The notes below the pieces were generated by a model. That model ran no database searches and was not told the DNA's origin. It saw only the letters and a program-made list of their open reading frames with translations. From the NCBI GenBank assembly GCA_921293015.1, contig OV121089.1, positions 43,161,220 to 43,225,219 on the forward strand: a stretch of DNA of 64,000 nt, read 5' to 3'. This document shows positions 34,351-63,906 of the stretch, in pieces; position 1 is the first letter of the stretch, and every line of letters begins with the position of its first letter. Source of the DNA: Phorcus lineatus (taxonomy: Eukaryota; Mollusca; Gastropoda; Trochida; Trochidae). Both the position numbers and the translations under genes were made by a program.

Positions 34351-35455
34351 CTTACGTAAAATACTTAGGCGATGTGAATGATAACTTTTGAAATGGCGTC
34401 GCTGATATCGCAACTAATTTTTATTTCATCCAATCAGCGCTCTACATTTCAATATCAAGAAACCTTCGTATTAAGACAGAGGTTGAATAGGAAGTTATGA
34501 CGGAGCTATCTCTGTTGGGAGAGAATGCATTTCATTGGCATTGGAAATACTGAAAAACTCGAGAATAGGCGAGATTTGGTTTTCCAAAAGGCATCTCTAT
34601 ACAAACACAAGTGTTGGCATTGGTTAGTGAAACGTTACCAAGCACAGAAGATTTTCATTAATACATGAATTTGTATTGATAAATAGGTCTATTATCGAAA
34701 AGTACATCTTCGGTGTACCTTTCTCTATTTTTGAGTTTTTGTATAAATTGGTATTGCCGGATTTCATATCTGCGTATGTCTTCTTTTTAAATACAAATAG
34801 TTCTTTGAATATTGTTAAATTCAATGATTCAGTTTCAAGTCATGTCCACACTTTTCTATTTAATGATTTTCCGTCGATGGAACGTTAAAGGACCCTATCA
34901 TTTGACAAATAGACTGTATTGGTTTCCCTGTTCTATGCAAGAGAATACCCTCTATTCTTGTTCGCAATATCTGTTCTTTGAGCGCTCTTTGATTTCACAG
35001 AAGGAAAGGAGCGTGTCCACCTTTCTGGGATTTCATGTTGAAGGGTGAACCACTGTCATCATTCCTGGCAAATTTTGCAGCTTTCTTTGGTTCCATACGT
35101 AGAAGGTAATCTTTAAACGAACGTCCTTGACCCTGACCTTGAGTGTCCTTGAACAAGTCTCCAGTTGCCATGTCCACCAGGGAACAACCTTGAGTATTCA
35201 GACACACAGTTGCGCACTCAATATCTGATTTACACTGAGTTGCCCTCAAAACCGCGTGGCTTGTCGTGTTGAGTGCTGCAGTTTTCTCGTGTCTGAAGAG
35301 GGTATACTTTGAATGGGTTGTCTGCATTCCGAGGAACAAGATAACCACATAGAATTCTACGTATAACATGCTGGACATCGACAAAGTAACAAGCTGTCTT
35401 GAAAATTGTAACGTCTTAAATGATAGTCTTGTTCAAGTTTTCTATGTAACTTGAA

Positions 35456-38410: not shown

Positions 38411-39562
38411 TTAAATCATGGCGAACAGTAGATTAGCGGAAGAAGCAACAAACCTTGGGTACTCGACAGACAGTATTTGGCTACCAAGACTACAGTTCTT
38501 GAACAGCTGCCTCGCCTCCAATCTGTTAGATCCCCTTGAAGAGTAGTAAACCAGGGAGCCATGTATTTGAACTATTCGCTGTGATTTGGATCCCAAAACA
38601 GTTGTCTCACTGCATAATACTTGTTTTGTTTTACGGTTTTGAAACATGACATGAAGTTCACTATATTGAAGCGTAGCAAACCTCGAAAATACAAACATGT
38701 CCATTTCTGGCATTCGAAATACCGAAAAACTTTCGTATAGGTGAGATTTGCAGATTTTCTTTGGTTTTCCAAAAGGCATCTCGGCACAAACCACTGCAGG
38801 AGTAGGCATTGGTTTTTGGAACTTTACCCAGCACAGAAGATCTTCATGGATACATAAATCTGTAGTGGCCTGTAGGTCTACCTTTGAGTAGTAAATCTTC
38901 AGTGTACCTTTCTCTGTTTTCGAGTGTTTGTATATTTTTTTATTGGCGGATTTCGTATTTGTGTAATATATGTCATCTTTGTAAATACAAATAGTCGATG
39001 CTCTGTGAACATCTATCAATTTTGTAACTGATTTTCCGTCGATGGATTGTGAAAAGACCCCATCATGTGACCAGTAGACTGTCTTGGTTTCCTTATCATA
39101 TGCAAGAGAACTCACTTTATTTTGGTTCGTAATTCCGGTTCTTTCAAAGCCCTCTGATTTGAGGGAACCTGTCAGGAAAGGCATTTTTGTTCCTTTAGAG
39201 GGAATCATTATGAATTTTGAAGCACCGATTTCCTTCTTGGTTAATTTTGCAGCTTTCATCGGTTTTGTTTCCATAGATAGAAGGTAATCTTTTAACAAAC
39301 ATCCTTGACCCTGACCTTGAGTGTCCTTTAACAAGTCTCCAGTTGCCATGTCTACCAGGGAACAACCTTGAGTATTCAGACACACAGTTGCGCACTCAAT
39401 ATCTGATTTACACCGAGTGGCCCCCAGAACCGCGTGGTTTGTCGTGTTGAGTGCTGCAGTTTTCTCGTGTCTGAAGAGGACATACTTTGATTGGGTTGTC
39501 GGCAATCCGAGGAATAAGATAATCACATAGAATTCCATGTATAACATGCTGGACATCGACAA
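38411..39562 (-). CDS. Single-exon secreted protein, family not named (Cys-rich N-terminus, propeller-like body)
   Basis: 383 residues in one exon. A hydrophobic N-terminal stretch (MEFYVIILFLGLPTTQS) looks like a signal peptide, so the product should be secreted. A short Cys-rich unit follows (CKSDIECATVCLNTQGC), resembling part of a PAN/apple domain. From about residue 145 the sequence has features of a beta-propeller related to LDL-receptor class B repeats (SSLAYDKETKTVYWSHDG, ICIYKDDIYYTNT), but repeats are degenerate and the assignment is an inference. There is no membrane anchor. Start choice is supported by the TATA box about 64 bp upstream and by conservation in the broken copy. Such single-exon secreted genes often belong to expanded families in molluscs. 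Substrate or partner is unknown. Confidence 0.75.
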   Translation of the reverse strand: MSMSSMLYMEFYVIILFLGLPTTQSKYVLFRHEKTAALNTTNHAVLGATRCKSDIECATVCLNTQGCSLVDMATGDLLKDTQGQGQGCLLKDYLLSMETKPMKAAKLTKKEIGASKFIMIPSKGTKMPFLTGSLKSEGFERTGITNQNKVSSLAYDKETKTVYWSHDGVFSQSIDGKSVTKLIDVHRASTICIYKDDIYYTNTKSANKKIYKHSKTEKGTLKIYYSKVDLQATTDLCIHEDLLCWVKFQKPMPTPAVVCAEMPFGKPKKICKSHLYESFSVFRMPEMDMFVFSRFATLQYSELHVMFQNRKTKQVLCSETTVLGSKSQRIVQIHGSLVYYSSRGSNRLEARQLFKNCSLGSQILSVEYPRFVASSANLLFAMI

Positions 39563-39625
39563 AATGTCTAAGATGTATTGTAAGGCTTAAATGATAGTCT
39601 TGCTCTCTTCTCTATGTAAGTTAAA

Positions 39626-54135: not shown

Positions 54136-56636
54136 ATGAACGAGTTCCTAACGATAGACAGCGTGAAGGATGTGCTGGTCGAGTGTCCTATCTGTGCGGA
54201 GTACTATGACGACACAACCAGAATACCTCGTCGTCTTCCATGCTGCAGCCAATCTATCTGCGAACCCTGCCTTCAGATCTACATAGGCGGACGGCAAATC
54301 GTCCCCTGTCCTCTCTGCTGCCAGGATACAGACTTCAAAGATGGCGTCTCCTCGCTGCCAAAGGAAATGGTGATTTTAAGATTCCTGGTTCTTCTAGAGA
54401 CACAGAGCAACTTCTTCCCGGCCTGCACAGACTGCCCTCATAGCAATACAGCAGTTGGGAAATGTGACACGTGCGGGGTTCTTCTATGTAAGGACTGTCT
54501 CAATACACATCCAAAGAACACGGCAGAGGATCATACAACAGTGACCTTTGAGACTGCTAAGAGTGATCAGCAGGCACGAAAGAATACTGTCAGACACCTA
54601 AGGACTTCATTGGTACACAAGACGAATGGCGCGCAAGAACCTTCCGATGAACCTCCAGCTGAAGATACAAATGAGCATTCACATCCTTTGACCAGCAATC
54701 TCAATACCAACGGACACCATTCTCCAGGACCACATAATGAGAAGGCTCAAGCATTAGGGGAACGGGTGGCACAATTGCAGGGAATATTGGAAAACATTAA
54801 TCAATCAAAAATGACCGCTGAAGTCAGAATCAACAAAATTTTCGATGATTTGACGGATGCAGTTGATCAAAGGAGGAAATCTGTTCTGGCAGAGTTGGAC
54901 AAATGGGCGGAGCAGGAATCGAGAAACCTGCATGTTGCGATAGAATCCCAACAGATGATGCAGTTCAAACTCCAGAAGGCAGCAAGATCGCGAAGAATAT
55001 CTTCCTCAAGTATTAAAGAGGAGAAGCCATGTGATGTCGACTTTGTGAGACGAGGCATAAGTTTTGTTGAGAACAATGTCCAACAGGTAACAGCCGCTGT
55101 CCGTGAAACTGGAACCCTAAGAACGGTCACTTTCAAACCCTCCAAAAGGCCCGATAGCTTGGACGGTGCCAGCCACTGTAACAGCGTTGAGCTTTCACCT
55201 GCAAGGATTACTTCAGGTATGTTGTTCTATATGCTATATATCACAGCGAAGGTATTTGTCTCGATTTTCACGATGTGATGTCGCATATGAGTAAACGTCA
55301 AGGTGTTAAGGAGTTAAGGAGTTAAGGAGTAAAGGAGTAAACAGCTGGTATGAGGCAAAAGGAAAGACGAATAAATCAATTATGGCTATCTTTTTTATCA
55401 GTTATGGCGATTAACTTTTCGAACCAACTTGGTTAAAAGAAAAAGACAATTACATTGATGTTTAATGTAGAATGAAATTAACGTTTTAAGACACTATAGT
55501 CTGTTCTATGTAAACCATCAAAATAGTACTAGTTGTTAGTTACGTTCTATTGCTTTTGCATTTACAAGTTGTTAATTTACTCTTCCTCGGTGTTGAATAA
55601 TTACTTCAATTTCGCTTGCAGTGTCCTCCATGGACCAAGTACTCGAGACAGAGAGTATGCGCCATGGAAACGTCGTTATATGTAAGACTTATATTTATCA
55701 CTTTTTTATTTTACACTGAGGTAAGGTCAATTTATGTTAAGGATACTTCACCTCGTTATGTTAAACATATATGATTGTAATATGCTGGAATGTTATTTGT
55801 AATTTTGTCATTTAGTATTCGAATAAGTTGAATCTATGTCAATAAATCCTTAATGCTGGATAATCTATTATTTTGTCTTCCAATATCGTCATTATCACTA
55901 GGCTTATGTCATACCCATTACTCCTTCTCTCATTTACACTTAGAACCTGCGACAACCTACGAATCTGAGACCTTATTGTTAATTTCCAGGTCCTTACTTA
56001 GAGTTCGATCGCAACACCACAGGAGAGAATGTGACCATATCGGGGAATGTGGTGGTGAACACGAAGCCCAGGCGTTCCTTGTCCCGCACCGGGTGTAGAC
56101 TGCAGGCCCCCAGAACCATCATGATCTCAAGACCATTTGTCCCGGCGGATAACAAACGATACATGTACGCTGTCAAGGTCAACTTCAAGCTGAAGCAGAA
56201 CATCCCAACCAGGAAGGCAATCCTTGAAATAGCCTCCACATGCAGTCCAGTTGACATGAACTTCTCGCAGGTGCGTGGTATGAGCGTCAGCGTGGCCTCG
56301 TGTCATTTCCACGCAGAACACAAAGACGATCTCTGTCTGGTTATAGAAACCAACGTCGACAGAGTGTACTGCAATCCCATCGTGCCAAATAAGGAAGGCA
56401 CGACAGGGGAGATAAGTCTTGCAATCATCGTGGACTACGGAAGGAACATGATTCACGTGCTAGACAATCGGAACATGGTGATCCTTGCAACGGTTCCAAA
56501 CATGATGCTGGGCGAACCACTGTGGACTATGATGTACCTGGGACGACCCGAGTGGACGGACATCAGTGGAGAACTCATTTCCGGTCAGTTCGTGAAGGTG
56601 TCCCGTGGATTGCTGGATCTAATCTCCATTTTGTAA
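54136..56636 (+). CDS. TRIM-like RING/B-box/coiled-coil protein with unnamed C-terminal domain (copy 1)
   Basis: Likely E3 ubiquitin ligase by family. Three coding exons: 54136-55216, 55622-55681 and 55990-56636, phases 1 and 1, 595 residues. A 3' splice site at 54130 puts a 5' UTR exon upstream, which is why the start is ATG 54136. The RING lies at about residues 15-60 (ECPICAEYYDD, RRLPCCSQSICEPC, CPLCCQD); the usual zinc-binding His after the third Cys is replaced by Gln. A B-box follows at about 105-145 (CTDCPHSNTAVGKCDTCG, LCKDC, then His residues), then a charged linker and coiled coil at about 200-300. The exon-3 domain (about 210 residues, starting CPYLEF and containing VDYGRNMIHVLD and GEPLWTMMYLGRPEW) looks beta-rich. 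Its tail loosely recalls SPRY (LDY...PL), but I cannot assign it. Paralogue at 61478. Confidence 0.88.
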
Positions 56637-56737
56637 AGGACATTTTTGACTTATTGAAATAGGGACAAAGTTTTAGAAATTAGATGGACTATGGTAGCTA
56701 ATGGGAGCCTTTATGTCTGTTGGTTACGTCACTTGAA

Positions 56738-56743
56738 AATAAA
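56738..56743 (+). promoter_or_regulatory. Poly(A) signal of TRIM-like copy 1
   Basis: AATAAA 102 nt after the stop codon at 56636. Confidence 0.65.
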
Positions 56744-58354
56744 TTATTGATTTTTCAAACTTTTTGTAAAGCTTCTATTCAGAATCTTAAGGTATGTGAT
56801 CGGACTAACGCAAGATTTGTAGTTCTTAATGAAAACAAAATAAGCACAATGATTAGGCTCCTCTGTGCCCTCATTTTGTTTGACTAGTATTACGACAACA
56901 CATGGTTTGACAATCAGTGTTCCTTGACTAACTGTTGTCTTCACATTGCCCTTTTCAATACCAACGACTTATCAACACGCTATAACGAGGACTTATAAAC
57001 ACGATTTAAACACGAAACATCAACACGATAACTGAGTGATAATATGAGGAATCATCTTTTAAAATACACGATCTCAAACTGGTAGTTGAACTTATATACA
57101 TGTGTTTACAACAACACTGCTCTCCAAACTATACTGTTTTGTCCAGTCACCAGTTACATTGTTTAATGTTGAGTCTTTCCGGTCGTTGGAATATTTTATA
57201 ATTGTTTTATTGCATTAGATTTTTTTGTTCCTTCCACAATGTTAATGTTACTGTTTGTTGTTGCTATCTTTTCTATGCTTCTGTACACTTATAAGAAAAC
57301 TACGAGTTAATAACTATGTTTACTTTGTTGTCTGGATTGGTTTTTAATTATATTTTTAGTAAAATAAGGAGTTTTGCGTTTTTCTTAGATGTAAGATTCA
57401 TTTTTTTAAAATGAATATTTGTTGTAATGATTCCAACAATCTTTAAAGTGTCACTTATCAGATGCGAACGTACAATCATAACGGACTGCCATTTACAAGA
57501 TAAAGAGGAGGTTTTACTTCGTATAAAGAACTTTACTTTCATTCGCATAAACATTTCAGATGTACACTACTTTACACAATTGAAATTAGAAATAAAAGTT
57601 TCTTCTTTTACGTCGTACATAAACAGCAGATTCATGCACAGAAATAATTTATATTTTCAATTCTTAACACATTTGAAATTAGAAATAATAGTTCTGAAGA
57701 CATGAACCGTAACAACGTTTGATTACATTACACACTGTCTAGATTATCGCCTTTCAATTTGTTTACAAGAAATAAAAATCTATATTTGTGATTTATTTGA
57801 TTTCTATGAATTACATAAAGAATTGTAAGCATGAGTATCTTGCTTTTTTGTGTATCTTCATTTGACTCTTCCCTCGGAGACCTTAGTTGAAATACAGAGA
57901 CACATTTCAATGTGTTTTCTATAATATGCGGATAATGTTGATTTACGGCGTTGCTTGAAATCCACTAATGATATCATAAACGCAATACAATCGCACTCCA
58001 TTCTGTCCATTTGTTATACGATGCGATTTATTACACATTCTCATCATGGAAGATGTGTGTGCTAAAATTATACGGATATAAATATAATATACAAATATAT
58101 TTGATTTTGAGTTGTGATAACATAGCTATACCACTTCACTCTCAAATGAAGGACTTGATCGGAAACCAACCCTACATATTCTAATATGCTTCTGCAAATA
58201 CCAAGTATAAAAGTGTAAGTTACTAATGTGCTATCAAGCCATTGATCTTGAGACTATTGAGATATGTCGATCCTAAGTTACACGAGAGCATAATAAAAGC
58301 AGAATGAGATTGCATTTCATGCGGAATATTTTATCGAAAGGATGTCACAAAAAC
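56744..58354. other. Intergenic sequence between the TRIM-like genes, left part
   Basis: AT-rich, with no coding region or element recognised. Confidence 0.3.
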
Positions 58355-58522
58355 ACCGGTTGCCCATGTGTATTCACTCAATCCCGGTTACTTAAGTGTA
58401 TTAAAGCAGTCTTGGTTACTTAAGTGTATCAAAACTGTCCCGGTTGCTAAAGTGTATTAAAGTAGTCCCGATTGCTTGAGTGTATAAAATTATTTTCTGT
58501 TGCCTAAGTGTATAAACCAATA
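58355..58522. repeat. 28-bp minisatellite, about six units
   Basis: Five units of exactly 28 bp start at 58383 (core cccggttacttaagtgtat), preceded by a shorter unit of the same type at about 58356. Units share the form (c)cggttgc(t/c)(t/a)aagtgta and diverge gradually to the right. Confidence 0.85.
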
Positions 58523-58746
58523 CACGCGGATGTATTCGAATAAACTATGTCAGGTCGTTGATTAGAATTTATAGCATTTCATTAATGGTGATGACGTCAC
58601 TCTATCTACAGTGGAATTTTAAAAGAATCCACTGCTCATTGACTGTCCTGTCATGGAGGGTGTCAAGTTTTGAATGTCTTGATGATAAAGAGTTAACTCA
58701 TTATTTTTCAAGAATGTCAATTCTAAAACGACTCAAATGTGTGTAA

Positions 58747-58812
58747 AAACTTGAAATGGGTCGAGATTCGAACTCACGACCCTCTTACTTATTGCTTTTA
58801 TCCACTGAGTTA
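58747..58812 (-). mobile_element. tRNA-like sequence (SINE head or tRNA pseudogene)
   Basis: On the - strand, gtaactcagtggataaaagc resembles an A box/D arm and gggtcgtgagttcgaatctc resembles the T arm/B box, at tRNA-like spacing. An acceptor stem and a clean anticodon stem could not be folded by eye, so a tRNA-derived SINE head is more likely than a working tRNA gene. Confidence 0.45.
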
Positions 58813-61473
58813 CTTTGTCAGTAAGAAATCTGCATTTTGATGGGTAAAGCGTGAAGCGCACGTTGGCAACATGGATAGCATGACCTAATCACGTGCAATT
58901 CAACGACGATCGTACAGAAACTGCAATGCCTCATGCTTGGACGAACCAATTTCAGGCGCGTCAGATATCCGATAATCATCAAAAATCGCAATAACATTCA
59001 GTTAAGCGTGGGAGGTATCTAAAATATCTAAAATAATGAAAATGTCCAGTTTCATGAGGTCAGGCAGTGATTGTGATGGTGAATGTTTCGGAGTCGTAAA
59101 TTCGTGAAAAATGAAGAACTCGCCCCTTCGAGCCACTACCCTTTTAAAATGACAAGTAGTATTTTTCATTTCATTCTATTTGGTTATAGAACGATCCAAA
59201 ATATCATATGAACTGTTTTAGGTTTTAATCTCGTCACTCAAGCCTTACAATGATCCCCACAACTCAAAATGTAGGACAAATTCTTGATAAAAATAAAAAA
59301 TTTGGAAACGACCTCGGTTATTATCTCAATTCTAAATCACACGTCACAGTCACACGAATAGTCGCTAGACCTATTAAACACATGAAAGGAATTTGTTTCA
59401 TTGTCCCCAGTAGATACGTTTCAAAAGTACCGATTGCGCGTGCAAACAACGGTAAATTGTCAGGCCTCCGAACAAAACTGACAAAAATAACTTTGTCACT
59501 TTACAGAACCAATAAGCATTTGAAAGACGTTTTTTCGACATAAGGTCAGTGCTCCTCTTTGATAAAAACCCATTGACGAAGTTGAGGGGACCCGCACATG
59601 TAAAAGGCTCGATGATAAAGCATAATTTCAAACAGGAAGTAAATAACTCAAAGTATCAGAGAGTGACGAACAGTCAAGGTAGATCTTTGCTACGGCGTTT
59701 GAACATCTACATCTATTTGATTTGGTCTACTGGGTCCAGTCAAGACGAAATCTGTGTACGTCCTTGGTGCCGCGTCAGAGCAGGTAGAAAGTCACACCTG
59801 TTTTCAAGTTGTTACAACAAAATGTGAGTTTTTCAAAAATTTATTTCAATCTTTCATTGATACTCCCATTGTCTTTTTTGTATTCTTTTCACTACCTAGA
59901 GGAGATATATAAGTCTCTATTGGTGATTCTACAATATGGGTGATATACTAGCGATTCACCTTCATAATTCAGTGGCAAGATATTAAGGAAGAGTAATTAT
60001 AAACGATAATTTCGTGTTGTTTCACAAATTGAACTTTAATGATAGACATATTTCAAAACGAACCTGAAGACAGGTGCCCTCTGCAAAAGTTCTGAGCTCA
60101 CGTAAGACTTTCACCATTAGTCAAATTTAAGGTATTTTAAAGCAATCTTATGCAGGGATGGAGAAAGACAACTTTGACAATAGGCACTTTTTAGAGCTCT
60201 TATTCATTTCAGAATTTTCAATTGGCCATTGCCCTTAGTAACAATGATAAAAATTCTAATTTGAATGGGCCATTATTTATCCAATGTGCAAAATGTCCAA
60301 TGGCCCCTTTTCCCTCAATCCCTGCTTATGTTTATAAACATTTAAATCTATACGTACAGCTTTAATGAAAATTGTTACGACATGATAGACATTTATGGAT
60401 ATGAGTTGTCAAGCAGGTTTCTGGTGTTTTGTTAAAATGTTTTACAATTTACTTAATTCAGAATTGACAGTGCGTGTCACTTGTGATAGAAGCCTATGCT
60501 TACAATGAGCTATGTTTCATATACAACTGCATCCAGAAAGTTCGTTCACCTATTCGTAGATCCGACTGCATATGCCACTCAACTTTACTTGCGTTTGAAT
60601 ATCATTGCCTTTCCTAAATGTTCTGAAAAAAGATGAACATTTATCCTTTCGAACTTTGATATAGACCAAAGTGATACAAGATAATCTTATGGTACATAGA
60701 ATCGCTCCCATAACATAATGCTTACATAACATAAGATTATCGGTCTCGTGTTCGCTTTATTTTGATGCCTCAAATTATGTGACATCAGCGCATGAACGTG
60801 AACAAACTTTCGTGATGCAAATGCAGCTCTTTTTTTTATCATGGCCTTAATGTTGAGACTCAAGTTGGTCATATAGAAGGTTGATTCCGCCCTTCAAAAT
60901 GCGTGAGTGATAATATGGTTTAAAAACTACTCGTTCATACACGCTACATTGAAAAACCCATTGAAAAGAAATAGACCTATACACGATGTTATGTAATCTA
61001 AGAAAGTGCTTGTAAGGTGCGCGCTCTATATATTCACGAAATAGTATTGTAGTCATAATGTCATTTCAACCATAAGACTGTTTTCTTTATCTAGCCCAGC
61101 CCGATATTCAAAACAAATTGAAAGAGTACGGAAATAGGGCAATACGATTACACGTCACCGCGATGTCTTTCAATAAGCTGATTAAGATTCAACTACATAC
61201 ACTTGGACGACTTATAAATAGTTGTTAGTCCAGGACATTCTTATGTACCGAATGGAACGATAATGTATCTGTTGTTGCGATACTTATATGGCGATGGAAA
61301 AGAGCCACATCAAACAACGTTATGTATTTGCTCCTGTGGTGTTACGCGTTCAGGCCTTATGTGACTTGAGTTTTGTATTAGCGTGACAACGCTGCAAATA
61401 TACAATTGTCACAATTCGCTTTCAAACAACTCTACGTTTGGATTTCTAATGATATTTCCAATGTTATTTTCAG
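58813..61473. other. Intergenic sequence upstream of TRIM-like copy 2
   Basis: No coding region recognised. The 97-residue frame at 59250-59543 has no domain or splice context. The unseen 5' UTR exon of copy 2 should lie somewhere here, since 61473 is a 3' splice site. Confidence 0.35.
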
Positions 61474-61477
61474 TGTA

Positions 61478-63906
61478 ATGGCGACGTTTTCCCGTATGAG
61501 CTCCCTGGAAGCAGTCGCCCAATGTCCGATATGTACCGAAATCTTTGACAACGACAAACGGACCCCTAGACGTCTTCCTTGCTGTGAACAGCTAATGTGC
61601 GAACTCTGTCTGCAGGTGTACAGCAAAGATTGCAGGACAATAAAATGCCCTCTCTGCAGAGAAGAATTTACTATGTCGGCAGGCGTGAGGTCTCTGGCAA
61701 GGGATCTTACAGTTCTCCGGTTTCTGGATGCATATAACGAAACTATACCCAAATGCGATGACTGTCCAGATGGAAACAGATCAATGGCAAAGTGTTCCAA
61801 CTGCGATGTCAATCTTTGTCAGCCATGTTGCAAAGCCCACCGAAGACACGGTGCAACACGCGGTCATAAAATCACGGTTCTAACACAGTCGACGATTCGG
61901 GGAGCATCACAACCCAATGTACCAAAAAGAAGAACCCGTATTCCAAACGATATAGCAGAGAGGCTAGCGTTAATCAGAGCAAAGATAGGAAACCTTTCAG
62001 ACGCAAAAGACAACATAACATTATCGAAAACGGTTGCCACGGATACCATTAATAAATCCTTTGACGATCTGGTCGCAGAGCTTCAGCAGAGACGATCGAC
62101 TTTGTTGTCACTTGTGGATATGCAAGCACACAAAGAAGAAAAGAGCATCTTAACCGCTTTGGAATCGCACAGATATCTACAGGAGCGAATAGAACAGGCC
62201 ATTGACAGATCTTCTTTCAACACTATCAATCTGTCCTTAGATTCCGTGGACGACATCCTTTATATGAGAAGAGGCATCAACTTCATCGATACTGACATCA
62301 AGGAAATAACTTCTTTGGCCAAGGCCGCGGGATGTGTAAGGACGATCACCTTCAACCACAGAAAGAGACCGGACCACCTGGAACCTACCAGTCCCTGCAC
62401 AACCGTCTCCATAGAGTACACCAAGAAGGACGATGGTGAATAGCTTCAGTTCAATTATCTCACTTTATAAAGGCAGTATTTCCATACGGGAATGTATTTG
62501 CATATTGAGCACATTTACGTACAGGGGTATAAGCATATCTGATAAGCATTTGCCCGGAATTATGCATGTTATTTCATTGTTATTGACAGTCATATTCAAT
62601 TATACAATTTCTACAAATCAATTACACAATATGCTTACTTTTGATTAGGATAATATCTAAGGATAAGGATTGGGGACCTTTGGCCATTACTTAGTGTAAC
62701 ATGTATATAATTGACCAGAAACATGGAAACAAGTTTCCCATAGAAGTATGTGTCTCTGATCGAAATTAAATGAATATTAATCAAGTATTTGGATAAAACA
62801 CTTTTATTTGTCACAATAATGACGTGAAAATACGACAACTTCGTTATGTTTCTTTTAAGAATCGATTTTCGATCAAGTCATGCCAGTTGGGGAAAAGGTC
62901 ATCCATTGTAAGTATTTCCTTAATATTTCTTGATGTACATTTTAATTTAAATAGGTAACAATAATGAAATATACAACTTCTTTTATTTTGAAAATTTGAT
63001 ATGTTAGCACTAAAATGACTAAGGACGTGACAAACCCCTTTGCCATCATATTGTATATTACCTTGCGTCAATGCTGTTTTACTAACATCAAAGTGGATTG
63101 TACAGACATTTCAAGCTCTTGGTTTTTAAAAATTTTATCTGGAAGTGTTAGTGCAAGGTAGGTAAATATTTTATTTTGTCTGCATAATCTTGAAGGAATT
63201 CCTTCGATTGTTTTGTAACTGCCGTGTCAACTTTGTCAGTCTGGTATATCATGCCTTTCTCACTTAAGGTCCACATCTGGTGTATGACCAGTCCACAGCC
63301 AGCCTTGATAACTTGACAATTGGACCGGAAATCAGCAATTTTGGAACAGGGCAAGATCTCAAAGATACCGGGTGTCGCCTCCAAAGAAAGAGATCTGTTT
63401 TTCTATCAAAACCTTTCAGATTCACATCCATCAAACGCCAGATGTTGGTGATGAGGCTGCAGATAAAGCTAAGGAGAAGCGTTCCAGAGAGAGCGTCCAT
63501 CTGGGGCACTCATTGCACCAAGGTTCCAGACGACATGAACAGCTCCCAGATCGTCGGCTTCGACCTTGACGTTGCCACTTGTTCCCAGCACGGAACTCTC
63601 TGTCTCCGACTACTGTATGACCGTAAACGCCATGTCTGTAGCCCTATAATGGTCAACGAACCTGGGACAATCAGAGACTTGACCCTTGCTGTTCTTCTCA
63701 ACTCTGAGGACGAGTCCATCAAGGTTTTTGACATCATCGACATCGTGGCCCTTGGCACTGTTCCTGGAGTTGACTTCAGCCAGCCTGTCTGGACCATGCT
63801 CACCCTTGGACGGCCAGAGTGGTCTGAAATCAAAACGCAAATAATTCCCGCAAGGGATGTGAAGCTGTCAGCTGACATGATGAATCTTCTGTCAAGGAAT
63901 TTATGA
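61478..63906 (+). CDS. TRIM-like RING/B-box/coiled-coil protein with unnamed C-terminal domain (copy 2)
   Basis: Paralogue of the gene at 54136, same strand and same three-exon plan: 61478-62435, 62860-62907 and 63269-63906, phases 1 and 1, 547 residues. ATG 61478 follows a 3' splice site at 61473. The RING (QCPICTEIFDN, RRLPCCEQLMCELC, CPLCREE) again has Gln at the expected His position. The B-box (CDDCPDGNRSMAKCSNC, LCQPC, His pairs) and a coiled coil at about 150-250 follow. The short linker exon (SIFDQVM) matches SSMDQVL of copy 1. The C-terminal domain starts CPHLVYD and shares TGCRLQ, DMNSSQIVG, SPIMVNEPGTI-type and PVWTMLTLGRPEW blocks with copy 1. The coiled-coil region is shorter than in copy 1. 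Function as an E3 ligase is inference from the family. Confidence 0.88.

Follow-up and report, generated by a model that had tools for sequence, protein, structure and literature searches.

The 64,000-nucleotide stretch of the Phorcus lineatus genome analysed here (contig OV121089.1 of assembly GCA_921293015.1, positions 43,161,220 to 43,225,219 of the forward strand, hereafter the window) contains, between its positions 54,136 and 63,906, two tandem genes for TRIM-like proteins, each with a first exon for the RING, B-box and coiled-coil (RBCC) part, a micro-exon and a last exon for a C-terminal domain. Both belong to a large, largely tandem family in this one invertebrate genome. The explanation that accounts best for the results, and which we regard as probable, is that the members are TRIM-like proteins ending in a highly diverged B30.2 domain, and that the last exon is subject to diversifying change, as seen in recent paralogues. 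The components of the two genes are the following (window coordinates).

54136..55216, + strand: gene 1 exon 1, open frame from ATG to GT donor, phase 1, with RING, B-box and coiled-coil-like region.
54184..54318, + strand: gene 1 RING-like finger, sub-threshold match to Pfam zf-C3HC4 at amino acids 17-61, containing PCCSQ, with Gln at the His position.
54421..54546, + strand: gene 1 B-box-like finger, sub-threshold match to Pfam zf-B_box at amino acids 96-137, with Cys/His ligands that do not vary among four aligned genes.
55622..55681, + strand: gene 1 micro-exon of 60 nt, phase 1 at both ends, with AG acceptor, GTAAG donor and open frame.
55990..56636, + strand: gene 1 last exon, predicted B30.2-like domain (sequence and profile comparisons).
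61478..62435, + strand: gene 2 exon 1, open frame to GT donor, phase 1, with RING, B-box and coiled-coil-like region.
62860..62907, + strand: gene 2 micro-exon of 48 nt, phase 1 at both ends, with AG acceptor and GTAAGT donor.
63269..63906, + strand: gene 2 last exon, predicted B30.2-like domain (sequence and profile comparisons).

The joined frames run without interruption and give predicted products of 596 (gene 1) and 548 (gene 2) amino acids. All four introns are of the GT-AG type, every junction is in phase 1, and both last exons, of about 640 nt, begin with a Cys codon split as T + GT and followed by P(Y/H)L. The layout proposed in the first-pass annotation (long first exon, linker of 60 or 48 nt, last exon with the split Cys, all in phase 1) was therefore confirmed from the sequence, and the motifs TGCRLQ, DMN(F/S)SQ and WTM(M/L)(Y/T)LGRPEW were found in both domains as it had described them. 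The comparison of gene 1 with gene 2 showed 30% identity for the first exons (E 7e-61) and 36% over 213 aligned columns for the last exons (E 9e-48), and the notion of a TRIM-like gene pair is supported.

The micro-exon, predicted from the letters, is the weakest part of the gene model. Twelve paralogous loci were scanned with a pattern filter derived from the window peptides, the results being assessed by eye and not blind; an exon of 39-54 nt, in phase 1 at both ends and coding for a related peptide, was present in eight of them (L009, L010, L012, L017, L018, L020, L027 and L028), and no related micro-exon was seen in the other four (L011, L021, L023 and L026). The related peptides include FDQVMPVGEKVI (gene 2) and FDQIFSDGEKLFI (L027); L012 and L027 have micro-exons of the same 48 nt as gene 2, and the peptides they code for are related to that of gene 2. 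Since related micro-exons recur in paralogous loci, the exon joins are supported, and we infer that RING exon, micro-exon and last exon are joined in the mRNA.

The last exon probably codes for a strongly diverged B30.2 (PRY-SPRY)-like domain. A profile built from 31 copies (alignment A1, consisting of the two window domains and 29 others, with the near copies L017 and L035, the latter close to L034, and the broken L023 and L036 omitted) gave 25 matches among PDB chains at E<=10, and 22 of these were butyrophilins (18), MID1, TRIM16, TRIM16-like or HAPRIN, all of which we take to be B30.2 proteins. The top 15 matches fell entirely within this set, the best having an E-value of 0.0029. Most of them cover the C-terminal SPRY part (profile positions 140-184), and two TRIM16 chains cover the PRY part (positions 3-61); in five displayed alignments the PRY piece precedes the SPRY piece, which is the correct order. 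Moreover, the profile of a subfamily of six divergent copies (A2) by itself retrieved HAPRIN, MID1, BTN3 twice and TRIM25, which make up five of its six matches (E 0.027-0.89). When A2 was aligned by hhalign with the profile of A3, the group of 26 copies most similar to the window pair, a probability of 99.6 was obtained (E 9e-25, 213 columns); the two are plainly one family. Trp and Cys columns are conserved in the last-exon alignment. As to the B30.2 motifs LDP, WEVE and LDYE (PMC6114736), no exact motif was seen by eye in the window domains; rough counterparts in the same order, also recognised by eye, are LEFDPNTA in some copies, YFEV in A2 and I-D/Y-D-x-x-x-x-x-I. On the profile comparisons, a B30.2 fold is predicted.

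Several results weigh against this assignment. Neither window domain matched a Pfam family at cut-off, SPRY and PRY included, and neither matched an NCBIfam model; the sole Pfam match, DAAF9_N in gene 1, covered 33 residues at E 0.015 and lay under cut-off. The gene 1 domain as a single sequence matched no PDB chain, and the A3 profile alone retrieved none at E<=10; therefore the B30.2 assignment depends on the bridge through A2. The PDB matches are not independent of each other, since 18 of the 22 are butyrophilins, and the PRY piece in the five alignments scores just -0.9 to 2.6 bits. Pfam SPRY was detected in two of the 31 members (best E 0.047) and an arabinosyltransferase concanavalin-like model in five, hence in more than SPRY (best E 0.0026), all under the thresholds. 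Finally, A1 or A2 aligned by hhalign with three canonical SPRY exons of the same genome (L042, L043 and L045, SPRY by Pfam and presumably SPSB/SPRYD-like) gave probabilities of 0.2-0.3%, the same as a RING control, and no profile similarity between them and the family was detectable. Several of these results would be expected if the last exon coded for an unrelated fold or for another concanavalin-like sandwich, with a short beta-hairpin motif (G-x-x-x-D ... PLW) that resembles B30.2 by chance; the weak SPRY and PDB matches, mostly of about 45 residues, are in keeping with such a view. We consider it quite unlikely, because the A1 and A2 matches gather in a single domain family, because the PRY piece, weak as it is, lies where it should, and because the domain occupies the same place in the gene as in finTRIMs, where a very small exon is likewise followed by one last exon (PMC2657112). 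A strongly diverged B30.2-like domain is accordingly the preferred reading. The description of the C-terminal domain as one without a name holds for the Pfam and NCBIfam models, and no strong profile match to a known domain was obtained, the best E-value of 0.003 being weak. The vague resemblance to SPRY noticed in the first-pass annotation gains substance from the PDB matches of A1 and A2, and its suggestion of a new kind of domain gives way to a probably diverged B30.2. The C-termini of known TRIM proteins (NHL, filamin and others) were also considered and gave no Pfam match in either window domain.

The first exon had been described as containing a RING and a B-box. The B-box part stands: its Cys/His pattern is invariant in an alignment of both window genes with L012 and L059, and in these two relatives the B-box lies above the Pfam cut-off (E 4.8e-8 and 1.7e-5, respectively). 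The description needs correction in that Pfam support within the window is sub-threshold, and for the RING is found in gene 1 only. In gene 1, zf-C3HC4 was matched at E 0.018 and zf-B_box at E 0.0012; in gene 2, zf-B_box was matched at amino acids 91-132 (E 0.0027), and no RING model of Pfam was matched, the region being nonetheless alignable to that of gene 1. For the coiled coil, the general Pfam scan gave TRIM_CC in gene 2 at E 0.02, under cut-off.

The RING finger was assessed by the C3HC4 spacing of its zinc ligands. The Cys positions are conserved in the alignment, and the His is replaced, by Gln in 14 and by Glu in two of the 16 exons examined, giving the motif CCx(Q/E)xxC; the observation spans both window exons, L009-L028 (14 loci) and L059. 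With the His missing in all 16 exons, ligase activity is doubtful, and this counts against a TRIM-like mode of action. A neighbouring extra Cys could substitute for the His, and the RING exon of the C2 subfamily in L058 retains CLH. The chances of an active E3 ligase appear evenly balanced.

The genome searched is a 958-Mb assembly of 74 contigs, and the family counts, which refer to the best-scoring candidates only, are lower bounds and not totals. On contig C74 a COX1 fragment contains 13 TGA codons and no TGG, six AAA and one internal AGA; the internal AGA rules out the vertebrate mitochondrial code, and the fragment is in keeping with COX1 proteins of molluscs. The gene 1 domain found at least 39 matching stretches, 18 on contig C15, 17 on C25, two on C2 and one each on C5 and C32, by which the membership of the window genes in a multigene family is supported; three of the 39 carry a stop codon. 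Of the 37 stretches outside the window 33 were retrieved, C25:5814871, C15:31393793, C25:32840795 and C15:30648017 being left out. At least 108 stretches matched exon 1 of gene 1, some exons contributing two pieces. For the pairing of RING and last exons 36 of these matches were used, one of them twice: 30 of the 39 last-exon stretches have a RING exon on the same strand 0.8-33 kb upstream with no domain exon intervening, two have another domain exon in between, and seven have no upstream RING exon among the RING matches used. Upstream of three of the seven, of which two lie on C2 and one on C32, there is an RBCC exon of another subtype. Six domain exons had no RING exon within the retrieved DNA, and their upstream open frames, inspected by eye only, showed no other domain; in the pairing five of the six have a RING exon 9-33 kb upstream and the sixth an intervening domain exon.

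A domain query from C2 yielded 317 candidate stretches, the best 150 of which were scored, some being pieces of one copy; they form clusters on C2, C15, C25, C29, C32 and C41, with others elsewhere. Among the strongest 53 of the 150 (E<=1.8e-30), paired with 52 RBCC exon matches selected from at least 113, 41 have an RBCC exon upstream without an intervening domain exon. The Pfam SPRY model (PF00622) detected 16 places genome-wide, all of them outside the family clusters, whereas the family's own sequence found the many stretches just mentioned. B-boxes gave 864 candidates, and the best 150, which were scored, were all above the cut-off.

Some arrangements within the family deserve mention. 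At C25:33044288-33050554 (L024 and L009) a single RING exon precedes, on the same strand, two B30.2-like exons with open frames, separated by about 5 kb; judging from the sequence, the gene may use the two as alternative last exons, or one may belong to a copy whose RING exon has been lost. Three cases on C32 resemble this arrangement. Clusters of related RBCC exons on C13 (0.5-5.8 Mb and 26 Mb) have no last exon nearby among the matches listed by either domain query, and a third C-terminal type is possible there. The regions C25 38-46.5 Mb and C41 0.2-5.6 Mb hold 37 distant B30.2-like stretches with about one third identity, in most cases over all but the first quarter of the domain, and no RBCC exon lies nearby among the matches listed.

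For seven C25 genes with intact exons (omitting L015 and L019, in which the RING exon is damaged, L012 and L027, which belong to another subfamily, and those copies for which the retrieved DNA contains no RING exon), the mean synonymous divergence was 0.55 for exon 1 and 0.13 for the last exon. The lower value would follow if last exons had been exchanged or converted, and a different local rate could contribute. At least one gene, L019, is a mosaic, with its RING exon derived from one lineage and its last exon from another. In its first three windows the RING exon of L019, which contains a stop, has an identity of 94.5-97.5% with L021 and of 63.5-73.5% with L028; for the three windows inside the last exon the figures are 83.5-91% with L021 and 93-99.5% with L028. 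In the approximately unbiased (AU) test on the seven genes, the domain tree was rejected by the RING data (7e-36); the RING tree was not rejected by the domain data (0.087), which counts against the overall interpretation. With L019 added, the RING and the domain data each rejected the other's tree (2e-53 and 3e-7, respectively).

The ratio of nonsynonymous to synonymous divergence (dN/dS; Nei-Gojobori, ratio of means over 21 pairs of the same seven genes) rose from 0.20 in the RING/B-box part through 0.37 in the rest of exon 1 to 0.91 in the last exon. Codon site models, in an implementation made for the present analysis, were applied to a set of 18 copies chosen as intact, from which L011, L018, L023, L029-L040 and the window pair were omitted as too diverged or broken. 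Twice the log-likelihood difference between M1a and M2a for the last exon was 74.1 for the 18 copies, 57.6 for 12 C25 copies, 20.4 for six C15 copies and 31.0 for the seven genes. In the RING exon of these seven the corresponding value was 0.0, and M8-M8a gave 2.0 (p 0.08), so that no diversifying selection was detected there. Diversifying selection was shown for the last exon of these recent paralogues. In the 18 copies a site class with an omega of 4.0 comprises 8% of the last-exon sites, and M8 posteriors exceed 0.95 at alignment positions 74, 91, 94, 105, 114, 116, 121, 167, 182 and 185; of these positions, seven fall approximately in the stretch from the WEVE-like to the LDYE-like profile segment, and the selected sites may be ligand loops. 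The window pair itself is too diverged for such tests, and the selection result holds for recent paralogues; the diversifying change which the first-pass annotation had read from the pair is borne out to that extent.

Recombination can inflate site tests of this kind, which weakens the case for selection. When thirds of the last exon were given their own trees, the statistic was 61.2 for the middle third and 6.8 and 4.7 for the flanks, only the middle being strongly positive, which likewise weakens the case. In 29 data sets simulated under the null model on the seven-gene tree, without recombination, the maximum was 7.1 versus the observed 31.0, and two exceeded 5.99. A last-exon mean dN/dS near 1, together with the broken copies (the three stretches with a stop and the stop in the L019 RING exon), could also indicate relaxed selection in a family that is mostly decaying or weakly constrained. 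This is very improbable: about 35.5 stops would be expected in the 18 copies under neutrality, intact by choice as these are, and just three of the 39 stretches carry one, which argues against neutral decay; the conserved Trp and Cys columns and the omega 4.0 site class also tell against such decay. Diversifying selection and gene turnover would be expected equally if the family recognised changing self ligands, as in reproduction, self/non-self recognition or the control of mobile elements, and not pathogens. No result speaks directly against recognition of self, which we nevertheless hold to be unlikely by analogy only, several Class IV (RBCC-B30.2) TRIMs being antiviral (PMC3137616). Recognition under an arms race is probable; pathogen recognition, by analogy, would be the best reading of it, though unproven, and for a role in pathogen defence the arguments on either side appear to us about equal.

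TRIM5alpha and the finTRIMs suggest, by analogy, how the proteins may work. Assembly, presumably through the coiled coil, and action on whatever is bound would fall to the RBCC part, and the variable B30.2-like domain would select the targets among changing foreign or host ligands. The RING/B-box/coiled-coil part might then ubiquitinate or otherwise neutralise the target, which TRIM5alpha does and finTRIMs have been proposed to do. The choice of target would be altered continually through duplication, exon exchange and selection.

The closest parallel is the finTRIM (ftr) family of teleost fish, in which a 60-bp exon precedes a last exon of about 545 bp, the B30.2 domain is under positive selection, and a recombination site and shuffling of the B30.2 exon have been described (PMC2657112). 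Common to both are a large clustered RBCC family, a tiny exon before a single last exon, C-terminal positive selection (here in the paralogues and not the window pair) and recombination or shuffling of the C-terminal exon. They differ in that the B30.2 of finTRIMs is recognisable, that some selection on RING/B-box is reported for finTRIMs and none was detected here in the seven genes, and that the host here is an invertebrate. With TRIM5alpha and the vertebrate Class IV or group 2 TRIMs the family shares the RBCC part with a C-terminal B30.2, fast evolution and clustering (PMC2533329, PMC3137616), and it differs from them by the missing RING His. The best PDB matches of A1, weak and mainly to the C-terminal SPRY part, are to the B30.2 of butyrophilin BTN3 (8hjt, 6j0g and others). 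Butyrophilins are membrane proteins with an architecture other than that of the TRIM-like family.

The fast-evolving, SPRY-bearing group 2 of TRIMs has been reported as absent from invertebrates (PMC2533329). In molluscs, a B-box orthogroup appears in a table of a paper on expanded gene families in bivalves (PMC8382680), and 22 TRIM genes are given for Aplysia (PMC9334734); among titles and available portions of abstracts in the open-licence literature none was found that describes the present family or domain. An invertebrate appears here to have built a counterpart of group 2 TRIMs with a domain that the standard model misses. It is tempting to speculate, at slightly less than even confidence, that this is a repertoire of at least 100 TRIM-like proteins whose Pfam-invisible B30.2-like exon is under strong positive selection and reshuffled between RING exons, and which is an independent counterpart of finTRIMs. 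If so, it would represent a candidate antiviral or antimicrobial repertoire so far unannotated, and the selected sites would point to where ligand contacts may lie.

Elsewhere in the window, two open frames on the - strand (34998-35432 and 38414-39586; 145 and 391 amino acids) have a similar start, MSSMLYxEFYVxILFLG, as judged by eye; from their sequence they look like duplicated genes, possibly for secreted products.

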